Of a stretch of 64,000 nt of DNA, positions 26,721 to 48,653 are shown one piece after another; the first letter of the stretch is position 1, and every line of letters begins with the position of its first letter. The notes beneath the pieces are model-generated. The model saw only the letters and a program-made list of their open reading frames with translations. It was not told where the DNA came from and did no database searches. The stretch comes from an uncultured Verrucomicrobia subdivision 3 bacterium (GTDB lineage Bacteria; Verrucomicrobiota; Verrucomicrobiia; Limisphaerales; UBA11358), in the NCBI GenBank assembly GCA_903865745.1, contig CAIPKV010000053.1, positions 1 to 64,000 of the forward strand, written 5' to 3'. A program made the position numbers and the translations under genes.

Positions 26721-27175
26721 CCGACTATAACGTCGGCAGGCCGTTGGCGTCGGACAGGCGCAGAAGGCTGTGGTCAAAAAGAGACAGTTGGAGTGCGATT
26801 TGGTTCAAAAAAGGCGTTTTTTCCATAAGTCGTTCAGCCGGAGCCTACACTGGAGTCGCTTTTTCAAAAAGCGGGTCCGCCTTTTGAAAAAGCGGGTCAG
26901 CTTATCGTAAAGGCGGGTCAGCTTTTCCAATAAGCTGGTCATCCTTTCCCGAAAGCGGGTCCGCCTACGCCAAAGGCGGCGTCGCCTTTGGACAAAGCAG
27001 GTCAGCTTTTTTGAAAAGCGAGTCAGCCTTTCCCGAAGGCGGGTCGAGAGTGGGCTACGGCGGGGTCGCCGGCGGCAAAAGCGGGTCAGCTTTTTTCAAA
27101 GGCGGGGTCGCTTTTCCCGACGGCGAGCCCGCTTTTTACAAAAGATGGTACGCCTATGGCGACGGCGAACCGATT
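26721..27175. other. Convergent gap filled by array B
   Basis: A 455-bp gap between the 3' ends of ligA and the isomerase-like gene. Apart from array B (26850-27170), it has an imperfect CCGAC/GTCGG inverted repeat just after the ligA stop. No gene is supported; open frames here follow the repeat. Confidence 0.65.
26850..27170. repeat. 21-bp tandem array B, about 15 units
   Basis: Units share AAAGCGGGTCAGC with a T-rich half. The GTC landmark recurs at 26855, 26875, 26896, 26917, 26938, 26959, 26981, 27001, 27022, 27043, 27065, 27085 and 27107, with decayed copies near 27127 and 27148. Steps are 20, 21 or 22, but 14 steps total 293 bp, a mean of 20.9, so the register is kept. Many units contain GCTTTT...AAAAGC inverted repeats. 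The array abuts the stop codon of the isomerase-like gene at 27176. Confidence 0.9.
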
Positions 27176-33280: not shown

Positions 33281-34837
33281 CTACTCCGACTTCGCCGCGA
33301 GCTGCACCGCCTTATACCCGCCACGCGATTTGAAGTAGCCGATCAACGCGAGATAACACACGAAGGTGAACAGCGGGAACATTGCCATCTTGCCCAACGC
33401 ACTAAACTTGCCGGCGGTCGTTGCCGCTTGCAGATCGGCTTGCGACTTCGCATCCGTCACCAGGGCGCTCTTCGTGGGGTCAATGGCCTGATACGCACCC
33501 AGCAGATAGTTCTGTTGCATCGTCACCGTTTGATAGAGCGCGGGATTCGTCACCTGCAATTGCTGCGTGGTGGATGATTCCTGCATGTAACCGAGGAACG
33601 GCGCGCCCAATATACCCACCGCCAGCATCCCGATACCGCCCATCGCGTTCAAGGTCAGGGCGCCGCCGCGCGGACATTGCTCGGAAGTCAGACCGAGAAT
33701 CGTCGGCCAGAAGAAGGTGATGCCCACGCCAAACAATGTCGCCGCCGCGAAAATGGTGCCGGTGCCGGCGTGCGCCGTGTGTGAGAGCGCAAGGATGCCC
33801 AAGCCGGCCAAGGCTGAACACGTCGCGAGCAGGCCGACGGGCGAGAACTTATGCGCGAGCGGTCCGGCGCAGAAGCGCAACACCAGCATGATGGCCGAGG
33901 TATAGACGAGCACCCACGCGGAATTATAGCCGGCGGCCTTCATCGGGTCTTCCATGAGCGCGGTGATCCAGCCATTCGTGCCCAATTCCGTCGTGGCTTG
34001 CGGCATCATGATGATGATGAGAAAGGCGAGGATGAACCGCCCAAAGGATTTCGTGATGACCGCGAACGTCAGCACCACCACGCCCGTCAAAATCCAACTG
34101 ACATTCTGCGACCAGCCGAACACTTGCCCGAGTTGCGCGAACACCAGACCGAAGCCCACGAGCGCGCCGAACGCCCCGAGTTCCTTGAGCATGGCGAGGT
34201 AGCTGATGCCAGCCTGCTCGCGTTCGCTCTTCGGAAATTGTTTGCTGATGAGAATGATGAAGAACGTGAAGGCCGGAATCAGAATCAAGCCGAGGTTGAT
34301 GCGCCAATCCGCATTGTTCGCCAAGGCGATGGTACAGAGGCCGCCCATCACCAACCCCGCCGGCCAGCCCGCGTGCAGGCGGTTCAGCCATTTCACTTTG
34401 TCCGTGTTGAACATCGTGGACACGATGGGATTGGCATACGCCTCCACCGTGCCGTTGCCGAGGCCGAGGATGATGCTGCCCCAGTAGAGCAATTGGTATC
34501 CGTGCTTCTGCCCGGCCACCAGCGCGTCGCCCGTCACACCGTGAATGCAACTGTAAGCGGCAATCGCCATGCCGGTATAGGCAAGATAGCTGACGAAGGA
34601 ATAAATCATCGCGACCTTGTAGCCGATGCGATCGATGAACAGGCTAAACAGGATGATGCTCACGCCGAACGACCAGATGCCCGCGCCCTGGAGTTCGCCA
34701 ACTACGACGTTGTCCAGGCCGAAGTCGGCCTTGAACTGGCCGCCGCACAGGATCATGCGGCTGATGAAGGCGTAGCTGGTGGTGATGAGGGCAATGAAGC
34801 AGCCCCAGAACAGGATTTTATCGTGCTTATTATTCAT
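33281..34837 (-). CDS. MFS transporter, probable sugar permease
   Basis: A 518-residue major facilitator protein with about 12 membrane segments. It starts MNNKHDKILFWGCFIALITT; the loop after TM2 has SLFIDRIGYKVAM, an MFS loop-2/3-like motif, and GSIILGLGNGTVEAYANPI recalls fucose/sugar permeases. A periplasmic loop of about 70 residues lies before the last segment (ESSTTQQLQVTNPALYQTV). Substrate is not determinable; sugars are most likely from the neighbours. It is divergent from cardiolipin synthase, with array C between. Confidence 0.82.
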   Translation of the reverse strand: MNNKHDKILFWGCFIALITTSYAFISRMILCGGQFKADFGLDNVVVGELQGAGIWSFGVSIILFSLFIDRIGYKVAMIYSFVSYLAYTGMAIAAYSCIHGVTGDALVAGQKHGYQLLYWGSIILGLGNGTVEAYANPIVSTMFNTDKVKWLNRLHAGWPAGLVMGGLCTIALANNADWRINLGLILIPAFTFFIILISKQFPKSEREQAGISYLAMLKELGAFGALVGFGLVFAQLGQVFGWSQNVSWILTGVVVLTFAVITKSFGRFILAFLIIIMMPQATTELGTNGWITALMEDPMKAAGYNSAWVLVYTSAIMLVLRFCAGPLAHKFSPVGLLATCSALAGLGILALSHTAHAGTGTIFAAATLFGVGITFFWPTILGLTSEQCPRGGALTLNAMGGIGMLAVGILGAPFLGYMQESSTTQQLQVTNPALYQTVTMQQNYLLGAYQAIDPTKSALVTDAKSQADLQAATTAGKFSALGKMAMFPLFTFVCYLALIGYFKSRGGYKAVQLAAKSE

Positions 34838-34945
34838 GGGAGAATTGGAAGGTCAAATGCTCGCAACGTCAGGTACAGAGTCAACGCCAAAAGTAGTCTT
34901 TGCCGACGGCCACGGTCTCCAGCAAAAACAGAATAACGACCATCA

Positions 34946-35197
34946 GGGACCTGACGAGGTCGAGCAGTCATTACTAAACCTCGGGGAATGACCTCCAGAC
35001 GCCAGACAGCGGCTTTGCGACGTCGAAAACTCAGCGGTGGAGGTCAGGAAATGACAGGGCGACTTCGAGCTGTGAATGTTCGAGGTAGAAGCCTGAATTC
35101 TCGACGGCGGCGTGTGACCCGTCGACGTCTAACAATGACTATTCGATGTCGAGGAATGACTTCTCGACGTCGAGAAGTCATTTCATAGATGCTCAAT
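34946..35197. repeat. 21-bp tandem array C, about 12 units
   Basis: Units begin at 34946, 34967, 34988, 35009, 35030, 35051, 35072, 35093, 35114, 35135, 35156 and 35177, with no indel. The consensus is RTGAC, three variable bases, TCGACGTCGAG and two bases, so each unit has a palindromic TCGACGTCGA core. Left-hand units are more degenerate than right-hand ones. The right end forms the 28-bp perfect palindrome at 35155-35182. Confidence 0.92.
35155..35182. promoter_or_regulatory. 28-bp perfect palindrome
   Basis: Arm AATGACTTCTCGAC (35155-35168) is followed without spacer by its exact reverse complement (35169-35182). It could be a protein-binding site or form a cruciform or hairpin. No T run follows, so it is not a standard terminator. 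Confidence 0.9.
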
Positions 35198-35429
35198 TTT
35201 AGGTGGAAAAGTTACTTGATGAAGGTTTTAGCCTTAAAAAACGGCCAACTGTCACTATTTGAACACCTGAAAGTGGCGGGCGGGTGGAATGGCGCTGTTC
35301 GCCTCGGAGACAAGCAAGCTAGGACGGCATTATCGCATTATAAAATCGTAACAATGCCATTTTTCTCCCAGCCTGAGTTGAACCGCTGTCATTGCTTTCG
35401 GGCGATTGAGAACCTACATTCACGCGGTC

Positions 35430-36899
35430 ATGAATTGGTTGGATGAACTCGCGCGCTTCTGGCCGCATCTCGCGGCGGGCTTTGATTTTATTGCCGCCGT
35501 GCTCGCGTCCGTGCATGCGCTGCTGAACAAACGCGATTCCCGCGCCGCCACCCTCTGGCTGGGCATCATCTGGCTGCTGCCCGCACTCGGGGCCGGACTG
35601 TATCTGGTGTTCGGCGTGAACCGGATTCGGCGCCGCGCCATCAAGCTAGCGGTCCACAAATCGTTTACCCGTGAGGTGCCGGAAAATCTCGGTGAACCGG
35701 AGCATGACGGCGCGGAACATTTGAAACATCTCGCGCACGTCGTCGGCCGCGTCACCGGCCAGCTGCTGACCACCGGTAACGGCCTCGAACCGCTGGTGAA
35801 CGGCGACGCGGCCTTTCCGGCGATGCTCGCCGCGATTGATGCCGCCGAGAAATCCGTCGCGCTCGTCTCTTATATCTTTGATAACGATAAGTCCGGGCGA
35901 CAGTTCGTGGCCGCGCTGGCCCGCGCGCATGAACGTGGCGTGGCGGTGCGCGTCTTGGTGGATGGTGCTGGCACGCGTTATTCGTGGCCGCCCATCACGT
36001 TTGTTTTGCGCCAAGCGAAAGTGCCTTTTGCCAAATTTCTGCCCGCTTCCATCCTCACGCCGTGGCGCGTGGCCACGATCAATTTGCGGAATCATCGCAA
36101 GGCGCTCATCGTGGACGGCACGCTGGCCTTCACGGGCGGCATGAATATCCGCCATGGCAATGTGCTGCAGGATGCGCCGAAAAGTCCGGTGCAAGATCTG
36201 CATTTCCGCGTGACGGGGCCGGTCGTGATGGCGCTGCAAGAGGCGTTCGTAAATGATTGGATGTTTACGACGGGGGAAATCCTCGATGGCGAAAACTGGT
36301 TTCCCACTTCGGAGACGCGCTTCGTTAAAGCCGGATTGCAAACGGCGGGCGAGGTCATTGCGCGTGTGATTCCGGACGGACCGGATGCGGATTTCGAGAA
36401 CGCGCGCTGGACGCTGCTCGCCGCGCTGGCGGAGGCGCAAACGTCAGTAAAAATTGTTACGCCCTATTTCCTGCCGGACCATGCGCTCATCGCGGCGCTC
36501 AATCTCGCGGCGCTGCGCGGGGTGCGCGTGGATATTATTTTACCGGCCAAGAGCAATTTGCCGTATATGCATTGGGCGTCGCGCGCGCTCTGGTGGCAGG
36601 TGCTCCAGCGCGGCTGCCATATCTGGCTCACGCCGCCGCCGTTCGACCATTCCAAGCTGATGACGGTGGACGGCCATTGGGTGCTGCTCGGTTCAGCGAA
36701 CTGGGACGCGCGCAGTCTGCGGCTGAACTTCGAGCTCAATGTGGAGTGCTATAATCGCGCGTTCGCGCAGGCGATGGAACGGTTGATTGCGAAAAAACTG
36801 GCCGACGCGCATGAGGTTGACCTGACGGAAGTGGACGCGCGGTCGATGTTGGAAAAGCTGCGCGATGCGTTTGCGCGCCTGTTCTCGCCTTTCCTTTAA
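35430..36899 (+). CDS. cls: Cardiolipin synthase (phospholipase D family)
   Basis: A 489-residue membrane-bound phosphatidyltransferase that joins two phosphatidylglycerols. There are two N-terminal hydrophobic segments (FDFIAAVLASVHALL and LGIIWLLPALGAGLYLVFG). Two HKD motifs follow: NHRKALIVDG with TGGMNIR downstream, and FDHSKLMTVDG with SANWDARS. The start is the ATG of MNWLDELARF; a TTG eight codons upstream is possible but less likely. It converges on nuoA. Confidence 0.92.
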   Translation: MNWLDELARFWPHLAAGFDFIAAVLASVHALLNKRDSRAATLWLGIIWLLPALGAGLYLVFGVNRIRRRAIKLAVHKSFTREVPENLGEPEHDGAEHLKHLAHVVGRVTGQLLTTGNGLEPLVNGDAAFPAMLAAIDAAEKSVALVSYIFDNDKSGRQFVAALARAHERGVAVRVLVDGAGTRYSWPPITFVLRQAKVPFAKFLPASILTPWRVATINLRNHRKALIVDGTLAFTGGMNIRHGNVLQDAPKSPVQDLHFRVTGPVVMALQEAFVNDWMFTTGEILDGENWFPTSETRFVKAGLQTAGEVIARVIPDGPDADFENARWTLLAALAEAQTSVKIVTPYFLPDHALIAALNLAALRGVRVDIILPAKSNLPYMHWASRALWWQVLQRGCHIWLTPPPFDHSKLMTVDGHWVLLGSANWDARSLRLNFELNVECYNRAFAQAMERLIAKKLADAHEVDLTEVDARSMLEKLRDAFARLFSPFL

Positions 36900-44096: not shown

Positions 44097-44453
44097 GACC
44101 GCCGGTCATTGCTTGGCGTCAGCCAGCCATCGGCTACCGTCAGCCAGTCATTCGCCGTCGTCAGCCAGTCATTCGCCGTCGTCAGCCAGTCATTCGCCGT
44201 CGTCAGCCAGTCATTCGCCGTCGTCAGCCAGTCATTCGCCGTCGTCAGCCAGCCATTCGCCGTCGCTAGCCAGCCATTCGCCGTCGTCAACCAGCTATTC
44301 GCCGTCGTCAACCAGCTATTCGCCGTCGTCAACCAGCTATTCGCCGTCGTCAGCCAGCCGTTCGCCGTCGTCAGCCAGCCGTTCTCCGTCGTCAGCCAGT
44401 TGTTCGCCGTCGCCAGCCAATGACTGGCGGTCGACCGCCAATTCACCGTCCAC
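44097..44453. repeat. 21-bp tandem array D, about 17 units
   Basis: Units begin every 21 bp from 44097 to 44433 without an indel. The best units read GTCAGCCAGTCATTCGCCGT plus C. Five copies at 44139-44243 are identical, three at 44286-44348 share a CAACCAGCTATT variant, and two at 44349-44390 share CAGCCAGCCGTT. Both edges decay (44097, 44412, 44433). The grouping of identical neighbours shows local duplication. Confidence 0.95.
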
Positions 44454-44819
44454 AAGCCCTGAAACCTCCGATAACCCACCCAAGCGAAGCTAGTTATGCC
44501 AAACTCCGGCTATATCAACCGCACCAACGTCGGTCTGACCGCTCCAAAACCCAAACCCTCACCTGGCCTACGGCCAGCCGTACCCCGGGCTGGCTGCTTG
44601 GGTGTTCACTCGGGCAAAGGACTTGAACGGCAAGGGAGGCGCAACCACCGGTTTCCTGCCTTCCTACATTCCTTATTAAAACAGTTCCGGCCCCAGCCCC
44701 TCCCGCTCGCGGATTCGACGGATTTCGTGGTTCCCAGTACGGCGTACCCCATTGACCGAATCCTAACGATTTTTCTGGCTCACTTGAGGGCGTCAGGCAT
44801 GATTTTGACCCCTTTGCAT

Positions 44820-47800
44820 ATGCTGAAATTGAATCTGCGCTCGTTACTTTTGCTCGCCGCCCTGCTGGCCACCGCTCGGCCGGCCGTTGCCGCTACCAAT
44901 GATTATTCCGGCCCGCTCTGGGCGTTTGAGGACCCGGCCAAGATTCTGGCCGCCGCCGCGGACATTACGACGGATCAATATCCGGACTCGGACTCGGCCA
45001 CGGTCGAACAACGCATGGTGCGCCAATATCAACCGGATGGCACCGCGGAGGCACAGGACGAAACTTTTCTCAAAGTGCTCACCGAAAAAGGCCGGCGCGA
45101 TAACCGGACGCTGACCCTCGGCTTCACGTTCCCCTATTCGACGGTGGATGTGGTCAAGCTGGAGGTGATCAAACCGGATGGCACCGTGACGCCGGTGGAT
45201 GTGGCGGCCAATTCCAAGGAGACCATTGATGACAGCCAGATGGACATGAACATCTATGACCCGAACAACAAGCTGTTGCAGGTCAATTTGCCCAAGGTCG
45301 AGATTGGCGAGGTCATTCATTCCATCATCCGCACCACCACCGTGCGCGCGTATATTCAGGATCAATACTCGGAGCTGAACCTGTTTGAAGGCAGCGGTTA
45401 CACCCGCCACATTTCTTACGAGGTGCATGCGCCGGCGGAGCGCCCGCTGAAATGTATCCAGTTGCGGGATGGCATTCCCGGCACGGTGACGTACGCGGCG
45501 GAGACGAACGCGACGGGCGGGGTGACGCATCATTGGGAGGTGAACAACGTGCCGCGCATGTTCGATGAACCGTCCATGCCGCCCTACGAAAATGTGCTGC
45601 AACGGCTGCTGGTCAGCACCCTGCCCGACTGGCCGGCGGTCTCGCAATGGTATTGGAACCTGAGCAAAGCCCATCTGGAGGCCACCTCGCCCGAGCTTAA
45701 GAATGAAGTTGCCAAGCTCACGCTCGGCATCACGAACGATTTGGATAAAATCCACGCCATCTTTTACTACGTCTCCGGCAACATCCGTTACATGGGTTTG
45801 ACGCCGGAAAAGGATCGTCCGGGCTTTGAGCCGCATGACGTGAAGCTGACGTTCGAAAAGAACTATGGGGTTTGCCGCGACAAGGCGGCGCTGCTGGTGG
45901 CGATGCTGCGCGCGGCGGGCTTGAACGCTTATCCGGTGTTGATCAATGTCGGCGGCAAGCTGGACCCGGAAGTGCCGAGCCCGGATTTCAATCACGCCAT
46001 TGCCTGTGTCGAATCGTCCCCGGGCAATTATACCCTGATGGATCCGACGGATGAAAACACGCGCGACCTGCTACCGGCGCATGATTGCAACCGCAGCTAT
46101 CTGGTCTGCCGCCCGGAAGGCGAACAGCTTCTGGTCAGCCCTGTGCAGTCGGCGGATAGACATTTGATGCAGATTAAAACCACGGGTGAACTCGGCGCGG
46201 ACGGTCGCTTGCTGGCGAATTCGGAATTGTGGTTCGCGGGCGTCAATGACGATGCCTACCGCAACGCTTTCGTGAAAATGAAGCCGGACGATATCCAGCG
46301 CTTCTTCGAAAACCGGCTCAAGCTGTCCGTGCCGGGCGCCAAGCTGATTTCGCTCAAGCTGACGCCGGAAAACCTATTGGACAAGTCGGAGCCGGTACAT
46401 GCCGCGCTCGAATTTTCCGCCGAGGGCCTGACGGCGGATGGCCAAGGCAAAGCCATCGTAACCGTCCCCTGGATTGGCAGTGGCTTTGGCGTGGTTAATT
46501 TCATCCTGCGCGACACTGGTCTGGAGAAACGGAAGTATCCTTTGCAAATCAGCGCGACGTGTGGCTTGCAGGAGGAAGTCGAGCTTAAGTTAAGCGACGG
46601 CTTTGGTGGCGCGGTTTCGCTGCCGGAATGTCCGCCGGTGGCAAATGAATGTTTAAGCCTGCAAAAGACTTTTACCTGCACGAACCAGACGCTGGTGTGT
46701 GCGCGGGAATTGAAGTTGAAGACCTTGGAATTTTCGCCTGCACAATATTTGCAGCTCAAGCAAACGCTGAAGGAAATGCAATATGACAGTCGCAAATCGC
46801 CCATCCTGGCACTGGCGAATCCGCCTGCGGTCGCGGCGGCTGACACCACGGCGGCGGTAGGCAACCCGGTGGTCAATTCGGATGCGCTGATTTTGGAGGC
46901 CACCAAGTCGCTGACCGTGAGTGCTGCGCACACGGCGGTTTACCGGGTGGAATACGCGAAACGAATTTTGAGTTACAACGGCAAGAAACGGGAGGCGGAG
47001 CTGAAGATCGAATACAATCCGGCGTGTCAGGACGCCAAGCTGATCCACGCCGTCACCATCTCGCCGGCCGGTCAGCGCGAGGAAATTTCTGCGGGTGAAA
47101 TGAACGTGATGGATGCCGGCTGGAACGGCTCCGCCAAACGTTATACCGGCGGGAAAATCCTCGTGGCCAACCTGCCGGACGTGACCATCGGTTCCGTGAT
47201 TCAGGTGGAATTTGAAATCAGCAACAAGGCCAGCCAGCCGTTCCTGGCGGGCTTTGAATCGTTCCAATTGCCCGATGAACTCGCGCATAAATCCTTTACT
47301 TTGACCGCGCCAAACAAAGTTAAAGTGCAACGCTTGATCAGTGGTCCCACCAACAGCCTCAACGCCGATGACGCGGTGGCCGCTGGCAAACATGTTTACC
47401 GGTGGCAGGTGGACAATGTGCCGGCGCTGCCCGCCGAAAACCTGTTGCCGCCGGATTGGACGTACGGCGCCGGGGTCGGTTATTTCATCGGGGACGCCAA
47501 AGATTATTATCGCAAACTTAATCAGGCGCTGCTCGACCGGGCAAAACAACACACGCAGGCGGCGGTGCTAGGCCGACAACTGACGGCCAAGGCAGCGAAC
47601 CAGTTGGACGCCCTCAAGGCGATACGCGACTTCGTGGCCAAATCCATCCGGCTGGCCGGACCTTCATTCACCGAACTGCCGTTAAGCGAACTTTCTGATG
47701 CGGACACCACGCTGGCCGACGGCTACGGCCATCTGGCTGATCGCGCGATTTTGTTTCATGCGCTGCTAAAGGCCGCCGGCTTCAAACCGGAGTTCGTGCT

Positions 47801-48653
47801 GGCGTCAGACTTGCCGCCGCTCACCGGCATCGCGGGCGTCGTCAAAACCTTTCCGCTGCCGCAAGAATTCCAGTATCCGCTGGTGCGGGTCGTTGTGGCT
47901 GGCCAGACGTATTACCTGAATGACACGGACCAATACTCGGAGTTGGGTGCCACCGCGCATGACGGCCGATTGGGCCTGGTGCTCGCCAGCAGAGACTATA
48001 CGGAGATTCACGCCGCCAAGGATTGCGGCAATGCCACGAAGACGTTTTATACCTTGTCCGTGACTGACCGCGGCCAGACGCGCGTGGGTGTGACGCGGTA
48101 TTATTACGGGGACGGTTATGGCACGAAGAATCATTACTTCTCCGAATTGCCGCCGGAAGAGCGCCGCCGTTATTTCCAGGAAACCGTTTCGCAGGTAGCC
48201 CAAGGCGCCCGGCCCGTCGGCGACCTCACGACGAAATTCGACACTTATCCCGGCCTCGAATCGTACACGGTGGACGTGGATAATTACGCCGTTGTTGACG
48301 GAAATTATTTGTACTTCGACCTGCCCTTCACCGCCTCGCTGTTCCCGGTGGGCGAAGATCATCGCGTGCTGCCGCTGTATCTTTCCGAAGGCACCCAGGA
48401 CACCATCCGTGCGGAAATCAATCTGCCGGCGGACTATCAGAAGATTGTGATTGCTCCCGCCACGAGGGAACTGACCACGCCCGGTGGCACCGCCAAAATC
48501 ACGTCAACCGCAACAGCGGATCAATGTGTGATTACCGAACAGCTCACCACCACGCCCGCCATCATCAATCCAGCAGACTACCCCGCGCTGTTGCAGGTGG
48601 AGTCGGCTTTGCACCGCAAATCAGCCAAGGTGTTTTTGCTGGAAAAAGAATAA
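44820..48653 (+). CDS. Exported double DUF3857/transglutaminase-like protein
   Basis: A 1277-residue exported protein. The start is the ATG of MLKLNLRSLLLLAALLATA, which gives a good signal peptide; the 108 codons open upstream lack coding character. It has two copies of DUF3857 plus a transglutaminase-like domain. In the first, the triad is complete: Cys352 in YGVCRDKAALL, His in DFNHAIACVE and Asp in MDPTDE. In the second, the matching Cys is Leu972 (YGHLADRAILF) and the His is Tyr (EFQYPLVRV), so it is probably inactive. Proteins of this type occur widely in Bacteroidetes and PVC; their substrate is unknown. Confidence 0.88.
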   Translation: MLKLNLRSLLLLAALLATARPAVAATNDYSGPLWAFEDPAKILAAAADITTDQYPDSDSATVEQRMVRQYQPDGTAEAQDETFLKVLTEKGRRDNRTLTLGFTFPYSTVDVVKLEVIKPDGTVTPVDVAANSKETIDDSQMDMNIYDPNNKLLQVNLPKVEIGEVIHSIIRTTTVRAYIQDQYSELNLFEGSGYTRHISYEVHAPAERPLKCIQLRDGIPGTVTYAAETNATGGVTHHWEVNNVPRMFDEPSMPPYENVLQRLLVSTLPDWPAVSQWYWNLSKAHLEATSPELKNEVAKLTLGITNDLDKIHAIFYYVSGNIRYMGLTPEKDRPGFEPHDVKLTFEKNYGVCRDKAALLVAMLRAAGLNAYPVLINVGGKLDPEVPSPDFNHAIACVESSPGNYTLMDPTDENTRDLLPAHDCNRSYLVCRPEGEQLLVSPVQSADRHLMQIKTTGELGADGRLLANSELWFAGVNDDAYRNAFVKMKPDDIQRFFENRLKLSVPGAKLISLKLTPENLLDKSEPVHAALEFSAEGLTADGQGKAIVTVPWIGSGFGVVNFILRDTGLEKRKYPLQISATCGLQEEVELKLSDGFGGAVSLPECPPVANECLSLQKTFTCTNQTLVCARELKLKTLEFSPAQYLQLKQTLKEMQYDSRKSPILALANPPAVAAADTTAAVGNPVVNSDALILEATKSLTVSAAHTAVYRVEYAKRILSYNGKKREAELKIEYNPACQDAKLIHAVTISPAGQREEISAGEMNVMDAGWNGSAKRYTGGKILVANLPDVTIGSVIQVEFEISNKASQPFLAGFESFQLPDELAHKSFTLTAPNKVKVQRLISGPTNSLNADDAVAAGKHVYRWQVDNVPALPAENLLPPDWTYGAGVGYFIGDAKDYYRKLNQALLDRAKQHTQAAVLGRQLTAKAANQLDALKAIRDFVAKSIRLAGPSFTELPLSELSDADTTLADGYGHLADRAILFHALLKAAGFKPEFVLASDLPPLTGIAGVVKTFPLPQEFQYPLVRVVVAGQTYYLNDTDQYSELGATAHDGRLGLVLASRDYTEIHAAKDCGNATKTFYTLSVTDRGQTRVGVTRYYYGDGYGTKNHYFSELPPEERRRYFQETVSQVAQGARPVGDLTTKFDTYPGLESYTVDVDNYAVVDGNYLYFDLPFTASLFPVGEDHRVLPLYLSEGTQDTIRAEINLPADYQKIVIAPATRELTTPGGTAKITSTATADQCVITEQLTTTPAIINPADYPALLQVESALHRKSAKVFLLEKE

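Follow-up and report, generated by a model that had tools for sequence, protein, structure and literature searches.

Palindromic or tandemly repeated DNA between bacterial genes is known from several systems, among them the REP/BIME elements with their RAYT transposases, minisatellites, CRISPR arrays, and the partition centromeres and iterons (parC-type), in which tandem sites in phase with the helix serve a dimeric protein. A distance of 21 bp corresponds to two helical turns of DNA. In case of inverted repeats, template switching homogenises the arms and inverts the spacers (PMC8604942), and a further paper ascribes quasipalindrome mutations in E. coli to template switching (PMC7202029). Here we describe a perfect 28-bp palindrome in a tandem array of 21-bp units, array C, within a 64-kb window (the whole stretch of DNA that was analysed). 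We infer, with a probability of about 0.6, that this palindrome is the product of a template switch in a fast-evolving, period-locked palindromic minisatellite.

The palindrome and its locus

The palindrome consists of AATGACTTCTCGAC followed directly by GTCGAGAAGTCATT and is exact over all 28 bp, as the original prediction had stated. It is the longest of the window, the second-longest being a 16-bp palindrome at the end of array D. Random DNA of the same composition would contain 0.0003 perfect palindromes of at least 28 bp per 64 kb, or 0.016 per genome, and a chance origin in such DNA is thus very unlikely. Array C sits between two divergent genes, and it has a stop codon in every frame, which argues against a coding repeat. 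The relevant features are the following:

34914 to 35186, forward strand: array C, about 13 degenerate 21-bp units, consensus GTCGAG.AATGACT.CTCGAC, dyad z 4.7, clearest from 34958
34959 to 34979, forward strand: first clear unit of array C, core inverted, arm equal to the palindrome arm with one mismatch
35148 to 35168, forward strand: last forward unit of array C, GTCGAGGAATGACTTCTCGAC, left half of the palindrome
35169 to 35189, forward strand: terminal unit of array C, GTCGAGAAGTCATTTCATAGA, core inverted (GTCATT for AATGAC), right half of the palindrome
35155 to 35182, no strand assigned: perfect 28-bp palindrome, its centre between 35168 and 35169 being the boundary of the last two units when these are written as in the consensus
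35174 to 35216, forward strand: right flank of array C (AAGTCATTTC..AGATGCTCAATTT..GTGGAAA), common to the end of another array at G000:C13:43948-43990
33281 to 34837, reverse strand: MFS transporter gene, neighbour of array C
35406 to 36899, forward strand: cardiolipin synthase-like phospholipase D (PLD) gene, neighbour of array C
289 to 645, no strand assigned: array A, 21-bp units, weak dyad (p 0.04)
26811 to 27167, no strand assigned: array B, 21-bp units, dyad z 4.4, between convergent genes
44105 to 44440, no strand assigned: array D, near-identical 21-bp units, with the 16-bp palindrome at 44425-44440

The palindrome had been described as a unit that meets an inverted half-unit, and this is indeed what the register shows, with the centre on a unit junction and an inverted core in the unit that follows. 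Searching the genome with the 14-bp arm, as had been suggested, returned the exact sequence only here; a copy that differs by one mismatch lies at 34959-34972 (minus strand, within the same array), and another at one further site of the genome. The first and the last clear unit of array C are both inverted, which we count in favor of template switching. Among the sampled arrays, array D is the nearest relative of array C (profile similarity 0.48 vs a 99.9% null of 0.437). No Rfam family matched in the 64-kb window. Directly after array D follows a gene with transglutaminase and DUF3857 domains (44496-48653), and this region resembles the regions that follow arrays in contigs C73 and C28.

In 15 genomes of this genus, the sequence up to 1.5 kb upstream of the PLD ortholog contained neither an array nor the 28-bp palindrome, and tblastn with the MFS protein detected no MFS gene within 1.5 kb upstream of PLD in related genomes, so that synteny is not kept. 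Among named sources, the PLD gene has its closest relatives in MAGs labelled Verrucomicrobia subdivision 3 / Limisphaerales. The right flank of array C is shared with an array on contig C13 (L143; 86% over 43 bp, E 8e-8), the last unit of which likewise is AAGTCATTTC; the preceding unit differs, only part of one arm is kept, and no long palindrome is present at that array end. As the C13 end has AAGTCATTTC without the palindrome, a comparison of the two sequences suggests that the terminal core was probably inverted before the palindrome arose, and that the perfection of the palindrome is private to array C.

21-bp arrays in the genome and the genus

Our sample comprised the window and other stretches, in total 1.456 Mb or 40% of one Limisphaerales-type MAG. 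In this sample, 64 self-similar regions were detected at a lag of 21 bp, as compared to none at 19, 20 and 23 bp and four at 22 bp. This extrapolates to roughly 150 arrays per genome, a rough figure, as some of the sampled stretches were picked because they contained arrays. Individual arrays consist of 6-24 head-to-tail units at exactly 21 bp. Genes were called by a simple hexamer score, and 61 of 67 lag-21 regions (score at least 0.55) lie outside the predicted genes; array D had been flagged only for an antisense frame and was restored, giving 62 analysed arrays, with the near-identical contig-end arrays L189 and L198 (1-147) entered as two. Detection relied on ungapped self-similarity, and arrays with indels are therefore under-counted. 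The thresholds (0.5-0.57, 8-9 of 21 matches) and the number of covariation pairs were chosen while viewing the data. Genes flanking the arrays are in tandem, divergent or convergent orientation in 29, 11 and 9 cases, compared to 132, 51 and 43 in wide intergenic gaps, and with no orientation bias a promoter or terminator role was rejected.

Further species of the genus have such arrays too (L273, L274, L280, L116, L140), apparently at a lower density, but 200 kb of sequence taken from three genomes in other families of the order showed none. A spaced AATGAC pattern in the order was considered and discarded, as the matches in other families often are 7-bp GAATGAC repeats; arrays of this 7-bp unit, which differ in period from the 21-bp arrays, are numerous in some genomes of the order (L054, L056, L057, L060, L071). 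We found no description of 21-bp arrays of this kind in the open-access literature searched, which covers part of the literature. Contigs C1, C3, C16 and C18 start, and C2 and C16 end, in or near a 21-bp array, which suggests that the arrays break the assembly. Arrays often have next to them a dispersed element, TTCGCGTATTTCGCGTATTTCGCGGTAA, with a length of about 30 bp (L083:5653-5688 and the flanks of L094, L145, L157 and L160), and a related pattern has 13 copies in the 1.456 Mb.

Dyad symmetry, growth and turnover of the arrays

When the 21-column base profile of each array was compared with column permutations, 45 of the 62 arrays had dyad-symmetric units at the 0.05 level and 41 at the 0.01 level, which bears out the earlier idea that palindromy matters in these arrays. 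The best-paired positions lie 5-9 from an odd centre, at which the sequence is loose and R.S.Y weakly preferred, and in an average unit only about half of the base pairs form. Between loci, unit sequences are mostly unrelated: 45 of 1891 array pairs exceed the 99.9% null (1.9 expected), and these related pairs form nine families, besides singletons, with unit families dispersed to unlinked loci.

As in tandem-repeat minisatellites, the units stand head to tail, and neighbouring units are more similar to each other, with the greatest similarity at a distance of two units, while unit quality drops from 0.70 to 0.49 at both array ends. Neighbour similarity and decay at both ends are expected for duplication-driven arrays. 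The original prediction had proposed that degeneracy rises with distance from the palindrome, which is correct for array C (rho 0.64, p 0.02) and incorrect for arrays generally, since these degrade at both ends. The palindrome as a seed for leftward spread is likewise not borne out: only 6 of 58 arrays are polar at p<0.05, and polar growth was thus rejected as a general rule. The loci L079:9750-10800 and L090:12350-13400 are paralogous, with both flanks about 90% identical, and yet their arrays are unrelated (similarity 0.37, 95% null 0.39); the L090 array instead groups with the L198 array at another locus (0.50 vs a 99.9% null of 0.437). L147 and L193, a recent paralogous pair, have 96% identical flanks and arrays of one family that differ in unit composition. 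These differences between paired loci, together with the neighbour similarity and the decayed ends, indicate that the arrays behave as duplication-driven minisatellites whose content is replaceable in place. An intergenic segment that contains an array occurs at five loci (L147:235-395, L157, L160, L193, L148), with flanks up to 96% identical, and from this pattern it looks like a mobile or duplicated segment.

Long palindromes, inverted cores and folding

Shuffling of letters within columns retains the consensus and the symmetry of an array and destroys the linkage within units. Against this control, perfect palindromes of at least 16 bp were found in 11 of the 62 arrays (2.3 expected) and of at least 22 bp in four (0.12 expected), namely in array C (28 bp), L220 (24 bp), L156 (22 bp) and L191 (22 bp); part of the excess may come from the linkage inside units that the shuffle removes. 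Palindromes of at least 14 bp lie in the dyad register in 12 of 13 cases. The original prediction had made its fate depend on whether the palindrome recurs in other arrays or is conserved at its locus, and here the outcome is split: the palindrome is absent from this locus elsewhere, yet long in-register palindromes do exist in other arrays. Unit cores that match the reverse complement of their own consensus were found 14 times, as compared to one for the reverse and none for the complement control. The excess of perfect palindromes and the inverted cores are statistical signatures of template switching between inverted repeats.

Covariation of the arms within units was tested in two versions and is weak overall, the Stouffer values being 2.2 and 2.9 for 7 pairs, and about 0 and 1.4 for 10 pairs. 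Arm correction therefore must be rare, and weak covariation fits rare correction events better than a constant selection on every hairpin; a unit-by-unit hairpin selection was rejected on these grounds. A hairpin formed by the whole array was rejected as well, as anti-diagonal complementarity reached p<0.05 in only 6 of 45 arrays. Real arrays fold better than column-shuffled ones (Stouffer -14), a value that has to be discounted because the shuffle destroys linkage inside units, and a smaller advantage persists when the order of the units is permuted instead (Stouffer about -4, 14 permutations each), which leaves room for selection on structure.

Origin of the palindrome and role of the arrays

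We propose that array C belongs to a set of intergenic minisatellites, roughly 150 in number, with a unit locked at exactly 21 bp and usually dyad-symmetric, in which local duplication would homogenise the units within an array, while polymerase template switching between inverted repeats would occasionally perfect the complementarity of arms and invert unit cores. The 28-bp palindrome, which sits where the last forward unit adjoins the inverted terminal unit, would then represent one of these events or what is left of it. Period and symmetry may be maintained because units two turns apart are occupied by a DNA-binding protein that is dimeric or polymerises, or by an enzyme that reads hairpins.

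What alternatives exist for this origin? A dyad-symmetric array such as array C makes palindromes much likelier than random DNA does, and a chance combination of variants could thus occasionally yield a long perfect one. We disfavor this and regard it as quite improbable, because 28 bp was reached with a mean number of only 0.02 over column-shuffled versions of all 62 arrays, and because palindromes of 16-24 bp are in excess likewise. It is still less probable that the palindrome was selected as the site from which a dimeric regulator controls the MFS and PLD genes, or that it is a defined array end. Its perfect symmetry and its position between two divergent genes would suit a regulator, and a half-site symmetry without strong covariation within units is what protein half-sites give. 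Against a private operator of the neighbouring genes, the palindrome is missing upstream of the PLD orthologs, and the arrays track the background of gene orientations without preferring divergent promoters. As for the earlier proposal of a recombination end, and the suggested check for palindromes at the ends of other arrays, array ends are not special: only 3 of the 11 palindromes of at least 16 bp lie within one unit of an array end (1.5 expected, p 0.18), and the C13 array with the homologous end has no such palindrome.

The units might also be hairpins that are read single-stranded and spread by a REP-type (Y1/HUH) transposase, in which case the stems could vary freely as long as they pair, and this would explain why units are unrelated but palindromic. 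The stem-like symmetry in unrelated sequences, the dispersal of unit families to unlinked loci, the weak shared R.S.Y core and two Y1_Tnp genes in the genome (PF01797, E 2.9e-27 and 5.1e-21), one of them about 1 kb from an array, all speak for such a mechanism. On the other side, there is no array within the locus of the second gene, a GTAG or CGTC tag beside the stem is not apparent (judged by eye, the unit consensuses have no common tetranucleotide tag), only about half of the pairs form in an average unit, and a text search of the paper on tagged REPs (PMC3733652) gave no match for 21 bp. We therefore consider this reading unlikely. The palindrome thus is one extreme product of a wider array pattern, not a conserved operator and not a general array end, and template switching remains our preferred explanation of its origin.

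The fixed period of 21 bp does not follow from template switching. A spacing of exactly two helical turns, together with the dyad symmetry, points to a DNA-binding protein, either dimeric or polymerising, that reads one face of the helix. This is our leading guess for the role of the arrays, albeit a tentative judgement and less likely than not; dimer binding is possible for the arrays as a class, although a single sequence-specific protein would hardly fit units of unrelated sequence. As main alternative, a hairpin or transposase role appears to us somewhat unlikely, and what these two judgements leave belongs to a replication-driven minisatellite without function. It is also possible, if rather doubtful, that the genus keeps many arrays with conserved period and symmetry and free sequence, that structure or helical phasing is read instead of sequence, and that other loci can provide the content with which an array is rewritten in place. 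A single palindrome alone would be a curiosity. Many arrays of the same geometry with mostly unrelated letters, in contrast, are a natural experiment that separates what is selected or imposed (period and symmetry) from sequence, and template switching in bacteria may have left a rich natural record in them. The source of the two-turn period, be it a protein, a hairpin-reading enzyme or replication itself, thereby becomes directly testable.

Comparison with known systems

Like REP/BIME elements with RAYT transposases, the arrays are intergenic, palindromic and dispersed, with several sequence families per genome and with Y1_Tnp genes present; they differ by their 6-24 head-to-tail units at exactly 21 bp, by mostly locus-specific sequences and by the lack of a visible GTAG/CGTC tag. 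With CRISPR arrays they share partly palindromic repeats arrayed between genes, but they have no unique spacers, and the units abut at the 21-bp period. Partition centromeres and iterons occupy one locus, whereas here about 150 loci carry mostly unrelated sequences. Perfected inverted-repeat arms and inverted spacers are also seen in the quasipalindrome template-switch mutations of E. coli and yeast, which are isolated hotspots, while the events proposed here would lie inside tandem arrays genome-wide and are deduced from statistical signatures. Bacterial minisatellites and other intergenic tandem repeats resemble the arrays in local duplication, a homogenised centre and decayed ends; the arrays are set apart from these by a single period for all loci, nearly all of them at exactly 21 bp, and by units with dyad symmetry.
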